Assembly: GCA_017541975.1 (NCBI GenBank)
Contig: JAFXYB010000010.1
Location: 1 to 42,681 of the forward strand
Direction of reading: 5' to 3'
Source: a bacterium
GTDB lineage: Bacteria; Bacillota_I; Bacilli_A; Izemoplasmatales; UBA1188
Length of the DNA stretch: 42,681 bases
Part shown: positions 9,875 through 15,179 of the stretch, piece by piece
Numbering within the stretch: the stretch's first letter is position 1
How the letters are laid out: each line of letters opens with the position of its first letter
Notes under the pieces: generated by a model
What the model saw: only the letters and a program-made list of their open reading frames with translations
Database searches by the model: none
Told to the model about the DNA's origin: nothing
Translations under genes and position numbers: made by a program

Positions 9875-10759
9875 TTAGTTATTCATTTGAGAATAAACTT
9901 CATCAACGAAGTTGTTTTGTTTCTTTTCGATACCAGCACCAACAACATTTCTTGAATAAGAAACGAGTTTAGCACCGTTATTCTTTAAATATTGTTCAAC
10001 AGTGATATTTGGGTCCATTAAAAATGCTTGATCCATTAAGCAGATTTCCTTTAAGCCTTTTTGGATACGACCTTCAATCATTCTTGCGATGATTTCAGCT
10101 GGTTTATTAGGGTTTTCTTCTTTAGCTTCTTTAGTTAAGATTTCTCTTTCGTTAGCTAAATATTCAGGATCAACACTGTTTCTATCTAAATAACGTGGAT
10201 CATTTGCACAAACATGCATTGCAACTTTCTTAGCGAGGTCACTATCAGCACCTTCTACTACTGTTACAACGGCAATCTTACCACCATTGTGTTTATAAAC
10301 ACCAAATTCTTGATTATCAGCTTTAGTAATAACTTGAACGTTTCTTAAAGTGATATTTTCACCAATAACTGCAATGAAACCGAGAAGCATTTCTTTTACA
10401 GTTTCACCTTTTTCGTTTTTAGCTTCCATAGCGCAATCAGTGGGCTTAGCACCAGATGCTACTAAAACTTTACCAAGTTCATTTACGAAATTGTTGAATT
10501 TTTCATTTTTAGCAACGAAATCAGTTTCACAGTTTACTTCGTAAACTAATGCGTCATTGCCATTAACTAATACATTGAATACGCCTTCTGCAGAAATTCT
10601 TGATGCTTTCTTAACAGCTTTAGCGATACCTTTTTCTCTTAACCACTTTGCAGCAGCTTCGATGTCTGAATTATTTTCTTCAAGAGCTTTCTTGCAGTCC
10701 ATAATTCCGGCGCCAGTTCTTTCTCTTAAATCTTTTAATAACTTAGTATCAATATTCAT
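9875..10759 (-). CDS. tsf: Elongation factor Ts
   Basis: Nucleotide-exchange factor for EF-Tu. The 294 aa protein has the N-terminal UBA-like domain with LRERTGAGIMDCKKALEEN (12-30). The core follows with YEVNCETDFVAKNEKF (the TDF motif that contacts EF-Tu), then the MHVCANDPRYL and GRIQKGLKEICLMDQAFLM regions. The Shine-Dalgarno GGAGG lies 8 nt before the ATG. It follows rpsB as in most bacteria. The gap between the rpsB stop and tsf is filled by an rpsB-frame extension (10776-11009). Confidence 0.96.
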   Translation of the reverse strand: MNIDTKLLKDLRERTGAGIMDCKKALEENNSDIEAAAKWLREKGIAKAVKKASRISAEGVFNVLVNGNDALVYEVNCETDFVAKNEKFNNFVNELGKVLVASGAKPTDCAMEAKNEKGETVKEMLLGFIAVIGENITLRNVQVITKADNQEFGVYKHNGGKIAVVTVVEGADSDLAKKVAMHVCANDPRYLDRNSVDPEYLANEREILTKEAKEENPNKPAEIIARMIEGRIQKGLKEICLMDQAFLMDPNITVEQYLKNNGAKLVSYSRNVVGAGIEKKQNNFVDEVYSQMNN

Positions 10760-10775: not shown

Positions 10776-11009
10776 TTATTTTCTTAAAGCTTCTACTAAT
10801 TCAGCTTTCTTCATTGTTGAAAAGCCTGAGATACCTTTTTCTTTGCAGAGTTCTCTTAATTCAGCAACTGTCATTTTTTCATAATCAACAGTTTCAGCTT
10901 CTTCAGTTACTTCTTCTTGAGTTTCTTCTTGAGCCTTTACTTCTTCTTGAGTCTTTACTTCTTCTTGAGCTGGTTTAGAATTTCTAACCTTTTTGTCTTT
11001 TTTAGCTTC
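10776..11009 (-). pseudogene. In-frame C-terminal tail of rpsB beyond a TAA codon (Rho_N/SAP-like end)
   Basis: Directly after the rpsB TAA (11012-11010) the same reading frame stays open for 77 codons and ends in a second TAA only 7 nt before the tsf Shine-Dalgarno site. The tail begins EAKKDKKVRNSKPAQ and continues with acidic repeats (QEEVKTQEEVKAQEETQEEV). It ends in a helical module, MTVAELRELCKEKGISG followed by MKKAELVEALRK, which resembles a Rho N-terminal or SAP/HeH domain. The acidic EETQEEV motif occurs on both sides of the stop, so this looks like one protein split by a single base change (for example AAA or GAA to TAA). Alternatives are a sequencing error, natural readthrough, or an independently translated 32-aa product from the internal ATG, although no Shine-Dalgarno precedes that ATG. 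Confidence 0.75.
10931..10966 (-). repeat. Two tandem 18-nt repeats in the rpsB tail
   Basis: Two copies differing by one base, each encoding a QEEVK(T/A) unit of the acidic linker. Related QEEV units lie on both sides. Confidence 0.8.
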
Positions 11010-11768
11010 TTAAGGAACATTAACCATTTCAGTGATAACTTGGTTAACTTCTTCTTGAGTTTCTTCTACTTGTTCATTTTCAACAACGCCACCAGCGCCT
11101 TCAATTAATGCATCAGCCATCTTAGCGATGATGAGCTTTAATGAACGGATAGCATCATCGTTTGCAGGGATAACGTAATCAACGTCGTCTGGATCACAGT
11201 TTGTATCAACGATTCCAAATACTGGGATATGTAATCTCTTTGCTTCGAGAATAGCTGTTCTTTCTTCTCTTGGATCTACGATGAAAATAGCTTGTGGTTG
11301 ATCTTGCATTTCAAGAATACCGCCTAAGAACTTTTCAAGTCTTGCCATTTTCTTCTTGATGTCATTAACTTCTTTCTTACCAAGTTGATCGAAAATACCA
11401 TCAGCTTCCATCTTCTTGTAATCTTGGTATTTCTTAATTGATTTCTTGATTGTCTTGAAGTTTGTGAGAGTTCCGCCGAGCCATCTTACATTAACGTAAA
11501 AATGTCCACAACGAAGAGCTTCTTCTTTAATAACTTCTTGAGCTTGTTTCTTTGTTCCTACGAAAAGAACCTTTCCACCATCTTTACCGATTTCTTTGAA
11601 TACTGCATAAGCTTGATCGATGCAATCACTTGTCTTTTGTAAATCGATAATATGAGTTCCTGCTCTTTCTGTGAAGATGTATGGAGCCATCTTAGGGTTC
11701 CATCTGTTGGTCTGATGACCAAATTGTACGCCGGCTTCTAATAAAGCCTTCATTGAAATAACTGCCAT
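11010..11768 (-). CDS. rpsB: Small ribosomal subunit protein S2 (possibly truncated at the C-terminus)
   Basis: 30S protein needed for S1/mRNA binding on the ribosome. The 252 aa protein shows the S2 signatures: [19 protein letters not shown] (9-27), then the [47 protein letters not shown] and [14 protein letters not shown] blocks. The globular domain is complete by about residue 225. The last 25 residues are an acidic tail that stops at TAA, yet the frame continues for 77 further codons (see the 10776-11009 entry). An unextended S2 of this length would be functional in most bacteria. It is first in the rpsB-tsf-pyrH-frr operon, behind a structured leader. Confidence 0.95.
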
Positions 11769-11801
11769 TTTTTGTTTTTTCTCCTTATTTTCTGATTTTT
11801 T

Positions 11802-11878
11802 GCCTCCACTGCCTCAACGCTTCCAGGCACCCAATTGTGGGCTCGAGCCTTCTACTCAGCAGTGTGTGTATTTTTGGC
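11802..11878 (-). promoter_or_regulatory. Structured rpsB 5' leader (candidate autoregulatory element)
   Basis: The minus-strand leader folds into nested stems: GCC/GGC (11878-11876 with 11804-11802), CACTGC/GCAGTG (11864-11859 with 11812-11807), AGGC/GCCT (11850-11847 with 11828-11825) and an apical CCCA/TGGG with a 4-nt loop (11841-11838 with 11833-11830). This GC-rich island stands out from the AT-rich surroundings and ends about 25 nt before the rpsB Shine-Dalgarno site. I do not recognise a named family. Ribosomal-protein leaders that bind their own product are the closest precedent. Confidence 0.6.
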
Positions 11879-11885
11879 CTTTGTT

Positions 11886-11914
11886 ATTTTAACAAATATT
11901 ATATGAAAATACAA
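11886..11914 (-). promoter_or_regulatory. Promoter of the rpsB operon
   Basis: Minus strand TTGTAT (11914-11909), 17-nt spacer, TAAAAT (11891-11886). The predicted start lies just before the structured leader. Confidence 0.65.
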
Positions 11915-11951
11915 GTATTTTCTTTTTGAGGTTATTTTTTATTTATTGTAT

Positions 11952-12398
11952 TCACAATATTTCTTTTAATTTTTGTAGCTCTTCTTCATATTTCTTAGGT
12001 TCTTTTAAGATTATGATTTTGCTATCTTTATACTTCTTAGAAATAGTTGAAATTGCTTTTTTGGCTTCTCCACTTCCACTATAAAGAATAAAAGATACTT
12101 TCTTGTTAGTTAAATCGAGTTTTGAAAGAACGGTATTGATTGGTGAAGATAATTTTCCATTCCAAATTGGTGAACCAATAATGACTTCATCGTATCCAGT
12201 TATATCGTTATCAAAATCTTTGAGTTTACTTTTGATATTCATACCAGCCAAAAATCCACCAGTTAAAATCCTAAAAAAGAAGCTTTTTGGTAATTTCTTT
12301 TTCATGATAACTTTTCTTTTTTGCACATCTTCTGGGAGTGAATTTGCGATCAAATCTCCATTTCCTGTTTCACTAAAGTAAATAAATATTTTGCTCAT
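11952..12398 (-). CDS. Flavodoxin-like FMN protein
   Basis: A 148 aa flavodoxin-fold protein, probably a small redox carrier or FMN-dependent reductase. The N-terminus IFIYFSETGNGDLIA (4-18) matches the FMN-phosphate loop (S/T-x-T-G-N). The GYDEVIIGSPIWNGKLSSPI block corresponds to the loop that stacks on the flavin, with Trp in the usual place. VSFILYSGSGEAKK is the third FMN loop. It uses a TGA stop. No partner enzyme is adjacent. It sits alone between the rpsB operon and the ABC transporter and may depend on readthrough from the ABC terminator. The exact electron partners cannot be told from sequence. Confidence 0.8.
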   Translation of the reverse strand: MSKIFIYFSETGNGDLIANSLPEDVQKRKVIMKKKLPKSFFFRILTGGFLAGMNIKSKLKDFDNDITGYDEVIIGSPIWNGKLSSPINTVLSKLDLTNKKVSFILYSGSGEAKKAISTISKKYKDSKIIILKEPKKYEEELQKLKEIL

Positions 12399-12458: not shown

Positions 12459-13364
12459 TTATATTACTTTCGATAAGAAATCTTTTAATCTTTCGTTTTT
12501 AGGGTTATCAAATACTTCGCTTGGAGTTCCTAATTCTTTTATTATTCCTTCATCTATGTAGACAACCTTTGAAGCAACCTTTCTTGCAAATGCCATCTCA
12601 TGAGTTACTATAATCATTGTAAGACCAGATTGTGTTAGTTCTTCCATTAAGGATAGAACTTCACCAACCATTTCAGGATCAAGCGCAGATGTTGGCTCAT
12701 CAAAAAGCATAACATCTGGACTCATACATAGACTTCTAATAATTGCGATACGCTGTTGTTGGCCACCTGAAAGTTTAGATGGATACTCATCCTTTTTATC
12801 TAATAGTCCAATCCTCTTTAGTAGCTCTAATGCCTTTTTAGTTGCATCTTCTTTATTCATTAATTTTAATTCAACTGGCGCTAAAACTAAGTTTTCTAAG
12901 ACCGTTAGATTATTAAATAGATTGAAATGTTGAAATACCATCCCGATTTTACTTCTTGCGATAGTGATATTTAGATAATTATCGTTTATGTATTTTTTAA
13001 TAGAATTCTTATATTCTTTTCCTTCTTTAATCGGTTTTAATAAATGGTTTTCTTTTATGTTGTCTAGTATTTCTTTTTCATCTATGCCTTTTGATGATAA
13101 TTTGCTATATGTCTTAGATTTTTTGATAATTTCATCGTGTTCATATGGATCAATCTCACTTATTAATTTATCATTAAAATATATTTCTCCATATGTTGGT
13201 TCTTCTAATCTATTGATGCATCTAAGGAGTGTAGATTTTCCTGATCCAGATGCCCCAATTATTACAATCTTCTCTCCTTTTTTTATTGAGAGATTTACAC
13301 CCTTTAAAACTTCGTTCTGTTTAAAATATTTATGTACATTCTTAATATCAATTATGTTTGTCAC
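12459..13364 (-). CDS. Polar amino acid ABC transporter, ATP-binding protein (GlnQ-like) with insertion
   Basis: ATPase of the importer encoded with the two genes upstream. Walker A GASGSGKS, Q-loop GMVFQHFNLF, signature LSGGQQQR, Walker B VMLFDEPTSALD and the switch His in VTHEM are all present. A lysine-rich stretch of about 50 residues is inserted between GEIYFNDKLI and the Q-loop, where GlnQ proteins have about ten residues. The C-terminus is normal. I prefer the GTG at 13364 because AGGAG lies 10 nt upstream. A frame from ATG 13385 places that Shine-Dalgarno site inside the coding sequence. The start overlaps the permease end by 17 nt. Confidence 0.92.
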   Translation of the reverse strand: MTNIIDIKNVHKYFKQNEVLKGVNLSIKKGEKIVIIGASGSGKSTLLRCINRLEEPTYGEIYFNDKLISEIDPYEHDEIIKKSKTYSKLSSKGIDEKEILDNIKENHLLKPIKEGKEYKNSIKKYINDNYLNITIARSKIGMVFQHFNLFNNLTVLENLVLAPVELKLMNKEDATKKALELLKRIGLLDKKDEYPSKLSGGQQQRIAIIRSLCMSPDVMLFDEPTSALDPEMVGEVLSLMEELTQSGLTMIIVTHEMAFARKVASKVVYIDEGIIKELGTPSEVFDNPKNERLKDFLSKVI

Positions 13365-14052
13365 TCTTATGTAGCTCCTTTTCAAATATTTTAATTAGAA
13401 ATGTAAATAAATACACAACGATTAAATAAAATAGTGCAGCAATAATTGATGGAGTAAAGAAATCTGATATTGCATAGGAAATTGTGGATGATGCTTGATT
13501 TAAATCAAATGTGAGAGTACCGACTGTACTACCAACCATCGATATAATAGCTGTTTCTTTAAGTAGAGCTATTACTTCATTACCAATTGCAGGAATTACA
13601 TTTTTTATTGCTTGTGGTAGGATTATCTTTTTCATCGTTTTAATCTCTGATAAACCGAGGCTTATTCCGGCCTCCATCTGTCCACCATCAACACTCATTA
13701 TACCAGCACGAATACTTTCAGAGACATATGCGCCACTATTAACTCCAAAACAAAGAATTACAGCATATACTTTAAATCCTGGGATTGCAAAGAGCGCAAA
13801 CACAAAGATAAATAGTTGAAGGGCTACTGGTGTACCTCTAAAGACAGTCGTATAAATATTACATATTGCATTGGGTATTGCAAGAGCTTTGTCTGCTCTT
13901 GCAAATACCTTGATAATGGCCACCAAAAATCCGAGTACAAGACCAATTGTGACAGCAATAAAAGTGATTCCTAGTGTATTTAGGAAACCCTCAAATATGT
14001 AGTTTCTATACTCTTCTGTCGTAATTATCTCGATAAGATTTTGGAAAAACAT
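13348..14052 (-). CDS. Polar amino acid ABC transporter permease
   Basis: A 234 aa membrane subunit of the HisM/GlnP type. It starts with a short cytoplasmic segment and has about five membrane spans. The TLGITFIAVTIGLVLG opening and the FRGTPVALQLFIF segment are typical of this family. The EAGISLGLSEIKTMKKIILPQAIKNVIPAI stretch is the EAA loop that docks the ATPase. It ends in TGA. It follows the binding protein by 3 nt and overlaps the ATPase gene. Only one permease gene is present, so the transporter is probably a homodimer in the membrane. Confidence 0.93.
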   Translation of the reverse strand: MFFQNLIEIITTEEYRNYIFEGFLNTLGITFIAVTIGLVLGFLVAIIKVFARADKALAIPNAICNIYTTVFRGTPVALQLFIFVFALFAIPGFKVYAVILCFGVNSGAYVSESIRAGIMSVDGGQMEAGISLGLSEIKTMKKIILPQAIKNVIPAIGNEVIALLKETAIISMVGSTVGTLTFDLNQASSTISYAISDFFTPSIIAALFYLIVVYLFTFLIKIFEKELHKSDKHN

Positions 14053-14055
14053 AAA

Positions 14056-14883
14056 CTATTCTATTCCTAAATGTTTGTTTACGAGTTTTTGAACTCCATT
14101 AACGCCATTTGTATCTTCTTTTAGGAGTTCAGTTAATACTTCGTTGATAGCGTTTAATATTTCAGTTTGGCCCTTTGTTACACAAATAGCATATTCATCG
14201 AATGCAAGTTCATCATCTTCTCCTTCTCCACCTTCATAATAAAGTGGTAAACATGCAAGATTAGATTTGCCTTTAACAAGTTCTTTTGCTGGAAGTTCAT
14301 CAATGATTACATAATCGATATTTAATCCAATATCATTAATCGCAACTGATAATTTATCGTAATCTGTTTTCTTAACACCTTCAAGAGAACCGCCTTCACC
14401 AAGTTCATCACCAAGGAAGAGATCAGCGGTAGTTCCACCTTGAACACCAATACCCTTAGTAGTTGTTAGGCTTGACCAATATACGCCTGTGTTACCATCT
14501 GTCATAGTTTTTGAGTTAATTCCAGTAGTTGTATTATAAATTACATAAAGATTTGCTTGATAATATACTTTTGAAAAATCTACTTTTTGTTTTCTTGCTT
14601 CAGTAACTGAAAGACCGGCAGCACCAACATTAGTGAGTTTTCCCTCAGACACAGTATCAACTATTACATCAAAAGATACATTTTCAAAAACAATCTTCTT
14701 GTTTAGTTTCTCTCCTACCTTATTCATGATATCAACATCGACACCAACGATTTCACCTTGACTAACATACTCGAAAGGAGCAAAACCACTCTCAGTATAA
14801 ACAACGAGAGTTTCTTTTTTACCACAAGCAAATAAACATACTGTGGCAAGTAAAATAATGATTAAACTGATAATTTTTTTCAT
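14056..14883 (-). CDS. Amino acid ABC transporter substrate-binding lipoprotein (family 3)
   Basis: A 275 aa extracellular binding protein. The N-terminal signal MKKIISLIIILLATVCLFAC is a lipoprotein signal peptide with Cys20 as the lipidated residue. The mature part has the family-3 pattern: YTESGFAPFEYV (substrate entry), GVDVDIMNKVGEKL, NVSFDVIVDTVSEGK, then GIGVQGGTTADLF and a DYVIIDELPA segment. The ligand is an amino acid; which one is not certain. An Arg or other polar residue is likely given the family and the T-box upstream. A strong Shine-Dalgarno (GGAGAGGAGG) precedes the ATG. Confidence 0.92.
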   Translation of the reverse strand: MKKIISLIIILLATVCLFACGKKETLVVYTESGFAPFEYVSQGEIVGVDVDIMNKVGEKLNKKIVFENVSFDVIVDTVSEGKLTNVGAAGLSVTEARKQKVDFSKVYYQANLYVIYNTTTGINSKTMTDGNTGVYWSSLTTTKGIGVQGGTTADLFLGDELGEGGSLEGVKKTDYDKLSVAINDIGLNIDYVIIDELPAKELVKGKSNLACLPLYYEGGEGEDDELAFDEYAICVTKGQTEILNAINEVLTELLKEDTNGVNGVQKLVNKHLGIE

Positions 14884-14910: not shown

Positions 14911-15175
14911 AATAAAATAAAAACGCCCCTAGGTAATCCAAAAATTACCTGAGGGCGTAAGTTAGCGCGATACCACCTCAGTTCGTTACCACCTCACGGA
15001 TAGTAACCTTACCAAGTCAAACGACTTGAACTCCTTTATCGGGGAGATCCGTCTGTCCCTATGTATTCAGGAAGCCACTCCAAGACGCGTTCATATATGT
15101 TTTGTTTATTGTCTTTCACCAATCACAACTCGCTAAAAACTCTACCATATATTACTATTTCTTTTCAACGTGTTG
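14911..15175 (-). promoter_or_regulatory. T-box riboswitch controlling the amino acid ABC operon
   Basis: The minus-strand leader carries the T-box hallmarks in order: AGTA and AGAG near the Stem I base, the GGTGAAAG loop motif (about 15121-15114), GAACGCGTCTTGGAGTGG at the specifier/Stem I exit, Stem III (GTTAC/GTAAC), the T-box GAGGTGGTATCGCG (about 14979-14966), and a terminator. Uncharged tRNA pairing with TGGT would favour antitermination. The specifier is probably CGC (Arg), followed by a purine, but GCG cannot be excluded by eye. Confidence 0.9.
14923..14958 (-). terminator. T-box terminator hairpin
   Basis: Arms of 15 nt (14958-14944 and 14937-14923 on the minus strand) pair at 13 positions around a 6-nt loop and are followed by TTTTATTTTATT. 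It is mutually exclusive with the antiterminator formed by the T-box. Confidence 0.88.
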
Positions 15176-15179
15176 CAAC

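Follow-up and report, generated by a model that had tools for sequence, protein, structure and literature searches.

A conserved rpsB leader RNA in one bacterial order: an rpsB motif of the Firmicutes with a kink-turn consensus

Here we describe an RNA element in the leader of rpsB, the gene for ribosomal protein S2, within a stretch of 42,681 nucleotides of bacterial DNA (the window) which, judged by its sequence and its relatives, is a Firmicutes member of the known rpsB motif / t44 family and very probably works as an rpsB-motif translational feedback switch of the rpsB-tsf mRNA. What the analysis appears to add is a near-complete survey of one order together with a kink-turn consensus in the internal loop above helix P1, apparently not previously in print. 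The locus lies on the minus strand and reads, 5' to 3', promoter, a leader of about 110 nt, Shine-Dalgarno, rpsB and tsf:

11886 to 11914, minus strand: probable promoter read from the sequence, TTGTAT (11909-11914), 17 nt, TAAAAT (11886-11891), with a TG extension at 11893-11894
11769 to 11879, minus strand: 5' leader of rpsB, read from the sequence, its start deduced from the promoter
11799 to 11878, minus strand: rpsB leader RNA element (rpsB motif / t44-like), placed by model R1 (described below) and Rfam t44
11781 to 11785, minus strand: Shine-Dalgarno AGGAG, read from the sequence, 12 nt ahead of the ATG and beyond the folded element
11010 to 11768, minus strand: rpsB, ribosomal protein S2, 252 aa (Pfam PF00318, 319.5 bits)
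9875 to 10759, minus strand: tsf, elongation factor Ts, 3' of rpsB in the same direction, named from a reading of the ORF list and gene order rather than from a domain search

The Shine-Dalgarno lies 16 nt beyond the end of the folded element; from the position of the promoter, transcription would be expected to start near 11879. The promoter had been called clear in the original prediction, and an extended -10 promoter can indeed be read there by eye, but the site at 11886-11914 was missing from the output of a consensus scan (3 sites found, 1.5 expected). TTG...TAAAAT-like sequences are also visible by eye ahead of the leaders of relatives and we regard a promoter ahead of the element as plausible. 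The nearest named relatives of the S2 protein, among the matches listed, belong to Erysipelotrichaceae, Acholeplasmataceae and others, which would place the organism in the Bacilli.

Minimum-energy folding of 11801-11878 gave four nested helices (P0 to P3) and a two-pair step:

11876-11878 with 11802-11804, minus strand: P0, GCC/GGC, from the fold, the weakest helix
11858-11864 with 11807-11813, minus strand: P1, CACUGCU/GGCAGUG, from fold and covariation
11854-11855 with 11819-11820, minus strand: two-pair step GU/GC between P1 and P2, from the fold
11847-11850 with 11825-11828, minus strand: P2, AGGC/GCCU, from fold and covariation
11838-11842 with 11829-11833, minus strand: P3 hairpin, GCCCA/UGGGU, from fold and covariation
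11843-11846, minus strand: J2-3 bulge UCGA, directly 5' of P3, from the fold

The four nested helices predicted at the outset for 11802-11878 were thus reproduced in place, on the minus strand, and the 6-bp CACTGC/GCAGTG stem singled out at that time is present, a U-G pair extending it into P1. The folding energy was unexceptional, with a z of -1.46 for 11801-11878 (17 of 200 shuffles equally stable) and -1.71 for the 117-nt leader (13 of 200). By energy alone the fold could be chance, and a single sequence is insufficient as proof.

In order to assess the structure comparatively we searched for S2 in 101 genomes, 100 relatives and the window's own, and found it in 90. The regions upstream of 89 of these were used, window included, with one genome (G051) omitted as only 90 bases separate the start of its match from the end of a contig. 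A sequence pattern extracted the element from 78 of the 89 regions, leaving 11 without, and 66 of the 78 elements (the window and 65 relatives) entered a sequence-only alignment, A1, in which the 3' ends of ten rows were lengthened by 3 bases. The 12 rows omitted were near-duplicate, distant or mis-cut (L043, L064, L068, L078, L083, L085, L087, L089, L090, L092, L096 and L098). Run unprompted on A1, RNAalifold returned P1, the step, P2 and P3, with double compensatory changes in 12 of 14 pairs. When P0 was included, giving 17 pairs across the 66 leaders, 91.0% of cells were paired as against 75.7% in shuffles, the covariation score was 0.510 as against 0.226 (none of 500 shuffles as high), and sliding the partner columns by 1-3 brought pairing down to 37-50%. 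The original prediction had named an absence of compensatory changes in relatives as evidence against it; we counted 200 double-sided compensatory cells where shuffles gave 67, and 0 of 500 shuffles reached 200.

Double-sided changes occurred at 5 of the 6 pairs counted in P1 and at all 3 pairs counted in each of P2 and P3. P0 was paired in 89.9% of cells yet showed no double-sided change among the 66 leaders; over a wider set of 85 leaders GCC stands near the end in 4 of 4 that start with GGC and in 9 of 74 that start with GCC, which for P0 is only suggestive. As the covariation in the 66 leaders is strong we accept the structure despite its non-significant energy, and take it, on this comparative evidence, to be real and conserved for P1, P2, P3 and the small stem by the internal loop. 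A chance fold in a GC-richer patch would account for the z of only -1.5 and the 17 of 200 shuffles as stable, but it is refuted by the covariation among the 66 leaders, which 0 of 500 shuffles matched, and agrees poorly with the single strong match to the element's model in the genome; we give it practically no credence.

With regard to family, the original prediction spoke of a form that it did not recognise, and had listed a match to a known family as a finding that would count against that claim. At the gathering cut-off a T-box elsewhere was all that Rfam reported across the window, with no match at the element. A permissive search placed t44 (RF00127) first among 4227 families, matched at full length over 11797-11886 on the right strand with 20.9 bits and an E of 0.042 (4227 families, 301 bases), below the cut-off of 44 bits, which is a curation threshold and not a structural feature. 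In E. coli K-12 t44 is the annotated RNA immediately ahead of rpsB, and there Rfam scores it at 83.5 bits. Among the 101 genomes none reached the t44 cut-off, and sub-threshold t44 matches stand directly before rpsB in seven (G070, G064, G024, G033, G096, G084 and G053). Under the stricter filters of a t44 search over the 101 genomes 9 of the 16 matches listed fell elsewhere than rpsB, and the window's own genome had no match. In the reverse direction a model built from the 66 A1 leaders only (R1) gives 64.3 bits to the window element, which belongs to its seed, and recovers E. coli t44 at the same place with 23.7 bits (E 6e-4 in 164 kb, 1.3e-3 in 355 kb). Since t44 and R1 recognise each other's leaders, and since a 2009 BMC Genomics paper (PMC2704228) reports the rpsB motif in some Firmicutes, we assign the element to this family, and the claim of an unrecognised form falls.

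The window has several of the features expected of the family: the element sits in the leader of the rpsB(-tsf) mRNA, CACAC and GUGGAGGC border its long P1, and its inner hairpin, P3, opens with G(A/U)GCY. Its likeness to t44 of E. coli and other gamma-proteobacteria covers the same site before rpsB-tsf, ACACAC before P1, GUGGAGGC at the P1 end, and a long P1 with its internal loop, followed by an inner hairpin that opens with GUGCC in E. coli and with GAGCC in the window, while it differs in its score, 20.9 bits as against the cut-off of 44, and in the internal loop itself. The Firmicutes form in PMC2704228 also lies upstream of rpsB, with a long P1 and P3 and with a P2 (that paper's numbering) very short or absent, all of which resemble the window. 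As a separate observation, GUGGAGGC at the P1 end (11802-11809) resembles a second Shine-Dalgarno some 20 nt upstream of the ATG-proximal one, and in several relatives GGCGG replaces the GUGGAGGC-type motif at the 3' edge of the element.

At E <= 0.01 R1 matched 85 of the 89 rpsB upstream regions, comprising all 78 from the window's order, of which 65 belong to the seed, and 7 of the 11 from other parts of the class; counting non-seed regions only, 19 of 23 were matched overall and 13 of 13 in the order. The remainder all lie outside the order, with L092 matched only at E 0.083 and L044, L094 and L095 unmatched; a hit at L008:3501-3605 (E 0.22) was rejected as false. The window's own genome holds a single strong R1 match, this element, the next having an E of 2.8. 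Among named Firmicutes loci (best 80 matches listed) R1 found the element in 22 of 80, every one close upstream of rpsB, with no match at E <= 0.01 in the other 58, one of which, L139, has just 4 nt upstream. A phylum-wide draw under stricter filters gave matches at E <= 0.01 in 39 of 195 genomes and none in 156. Thirty matches were fetched from it, some of them from the window's own and seed genomes; behind 28 an S2 start can be recognised, and in L195 and L210 none was found by pattern. In much of the phylum the family would seem to have diverged past the reach of R1 or to be absent. A feedback leader for S2 that has been tested in E. coli would thus be present in 78 of 78 regions of an order although 0 of the 101 genomes reach the t44 cut-off, and R1 with its alignment would allow Rfam t44 to be widened.

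Kink-turns are recognised by a consensus of GA on both strands, a 3-nt bulge and a stem pair beside the bulge. In the window the internal loop above P1 contains the following:

11814 to 11857, minus strand: kink-turn pattern, with 5' GA at 11856-11857, 3' GA at 11814-11815 and bulge GUU at 11816-11818
11855-11819 and 11854-11820, minus strand: kink-turn flanking pairs, from sequence and covariation

At fixed columns of A1 the consensus is present in 63 of the 66 leaders (the window and 62 others), failing in L013, L052 and L077. Both flanking pairs form in every one of the 66 leaders, and one shows 26 double-sided changes; they occur as G-C/G-U and C-G/U-A/U-G with none broken, and the bulge starts with G in 57 of the 66. 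A parser free to choose the position accepted 55 of the 66 leaders, as against a mean of 4.6 and a maximum of 9 in 50 shuffles, or 5.6 and 10 when only the interior was shuffled. Its wider count of 88 of 113 is biased because the position is optimised, and we prefer the fixed-column figure with the shuffle control. Among the named set it passes 16 of 27 R1 matches at E <= 1, a group that includes E. coli, which fails, and weak matches that are probably chance.

E. coli t44 has no such GA pairs at the internal-loop position. The main text of PMC2704228 contains neither 'kink' nor 'k-turn', and in the portions of the open-licence literature searched we found no link between the rpsB leader and a kink-turn. 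There is a likeness to the L10 leader, which PMC10931766 presents as an autoregulatory ribosomal-protein leader with a kink-turn; it serves another gene and protein, the window has no L10 Rfam match, and the bend here is predicted from sequence. We would put at about even the chance that the S2 operator takes a structurally distinct form in the Firmicutes leader, set apart by a conserved kink-turn that the E. coli form lacks. If true, different phyla share a ribosomal-protein leader that has been remade around another RNA bend while its ligand stayed the same.

According to a review (PMC10931766), excess S2 in E. coli binds the rpsB leader with the help of S1 and represses translation of rpsB-tsf, the ribosome binding site lying outside the S2 operator. 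The layout in the window is as in E. coli, with an element off the Shine-Dalgarno, no predicted terminator and S1-domain proteins, and because of this we infer the same feedback. S2 in excess over 30S subunits would bind the folded leader, in E. coli together with S1, and once bound would block translation of rpsB and, by coupling, of tsf. The kink-turn may bend the P2-P3 arm back along P1, and thereby form a surface for binding close to where the ribosome lands. We likewise infer that S2 is the ligand here and that repression acts at translation, the latter because no terminator was predicted. S1 domains were found in 21 of 21 genomes searched, an S1 domain alone being no proof of bS1 / ribosomal protein S1. 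An S2-binding leader had been proposed at the outset, and it holds up as an rpsB leader RNA whose pairing relatives preserve through compensatory changes, S2-binding autoregulation being most likely by homology.

Attenuation is common in Firmicutes leaders, and on these general grounds binding might instead switch a transcription terminator. No terminator-like site was found in 11600-12100 (0 found, 0.4 expected), however, and by eye the linkers of relatives between element and Shine-Dalgarno are A-rich and free of U runs; for want of a terminator we dropped an attenuator as very improbable. The structure could also be a constitutive stability or ribosome-standby element without ligand, its conserved GGAGG making an extra anti-SD contact. 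Many relatives carry GUGGAGG along the 3' edge of P1, and the Shine-Dalgarno proper is outside the structure, which both speak in its favour. We consider such a role decidedly unlikely, given that GGCGG in several relatives weakens anti-SD pairing and that the element is similar to the proven S2 operator of E. coli.

The kink-turn consensus further brings into view the L7Ae-family kink-turn proteins of the YlxQ/YbxF type, one of which might read the leader instead of or together with S2. In favour are the consensus itself, in 63 of 66 leaders, and a search of 21 genomes in which 16 proved to have L7Ae-family genes, while the window's own draft genome (82.5% complete) gave no L7Ae-family match and in E. 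coli S2 regulates a similar leader without the kink-turn pattern. The searches for L7Ae-family and S1-domain genes do not decide between the readings, and we hold an L7Ae-type reader to be unlikely. If the Firmicutes leader is a distinct kink-turn form of the S2 operator, another protein, perhaps of the L7Ae family, might join S2 on it, as S1 does in E. coli.

According to PMC2704228 the pseudoknot characteristic of the rpsB motif spans 5 bp in most groups, as against 3 bp in Firmicutes. In E. coli t44 a 5-bp pairing can be read by eye between GGGGU, which precedes the inner hairpin, and ACCCC, which follows GUGGAGGC, whereas in the window the best match of J2-3 to the 3' extension is 2 bp. 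Among 75 of the 89 leaders that could be parsed, J2-3 pairing averaged 2.91 as against 2.82 with swapped partners (12 of 300 swaps as high) in what is a rough test, the crude 3' anchor having taken the wrong GGNGG in several rows; pairing of at least 3 bp was seen in 49 of the 75, with swapped partners almost equal, and the pseudoknot was not confirmed. By eye an AAUCA-like block between the element and the Shine-Dalgarno (about 11786-11800) recurs in many leaders of the order. It could pair with the UGA of J2-3, for which the pairing test is weak. Two class members, L206 and L207, show a possible longer pairing of J2-3 with downstream sequence, UUCCGU with ACGGAA, again by eye.

The suggestion that S2 itself is unusual here proved well founded, as the protein has in this order a tail at its C-terminus that contains a Rho_N/SAP-like domain, which in the window is cut off by a stop. 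Pfam matched the domain in both sequences run, the S2 of L003 and the downstream piece of the window, and inspection of 25 complete S2 ORFs by eye showed a comparable tail in 23, the other two being those of the window and of class member L031. The nearest relatives, L003 and L004, read on at a point where the window has an in-frame TAA (11010-11012) that limits S2 to 252 aa; there the tail domain stays open behind the TAA and before tsf (10776-11012, minus strand). On reading the sequences we saw no link between the S2 tail and the leader.

Elsewhere in the window a T-box leader (RF00230, 106.7 bits) lies at 14948-15177 on the minus strand, just upstream of an apparent amino-acid ABC transporter operon named by sequence reading, with these ORFs from the ORF list:

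14056-14883: ORF of the apparent amino-acid ABC transporter operon
13348-14052: ORF of the same apparent operon
12459-13385: ORF of the same apparent operon
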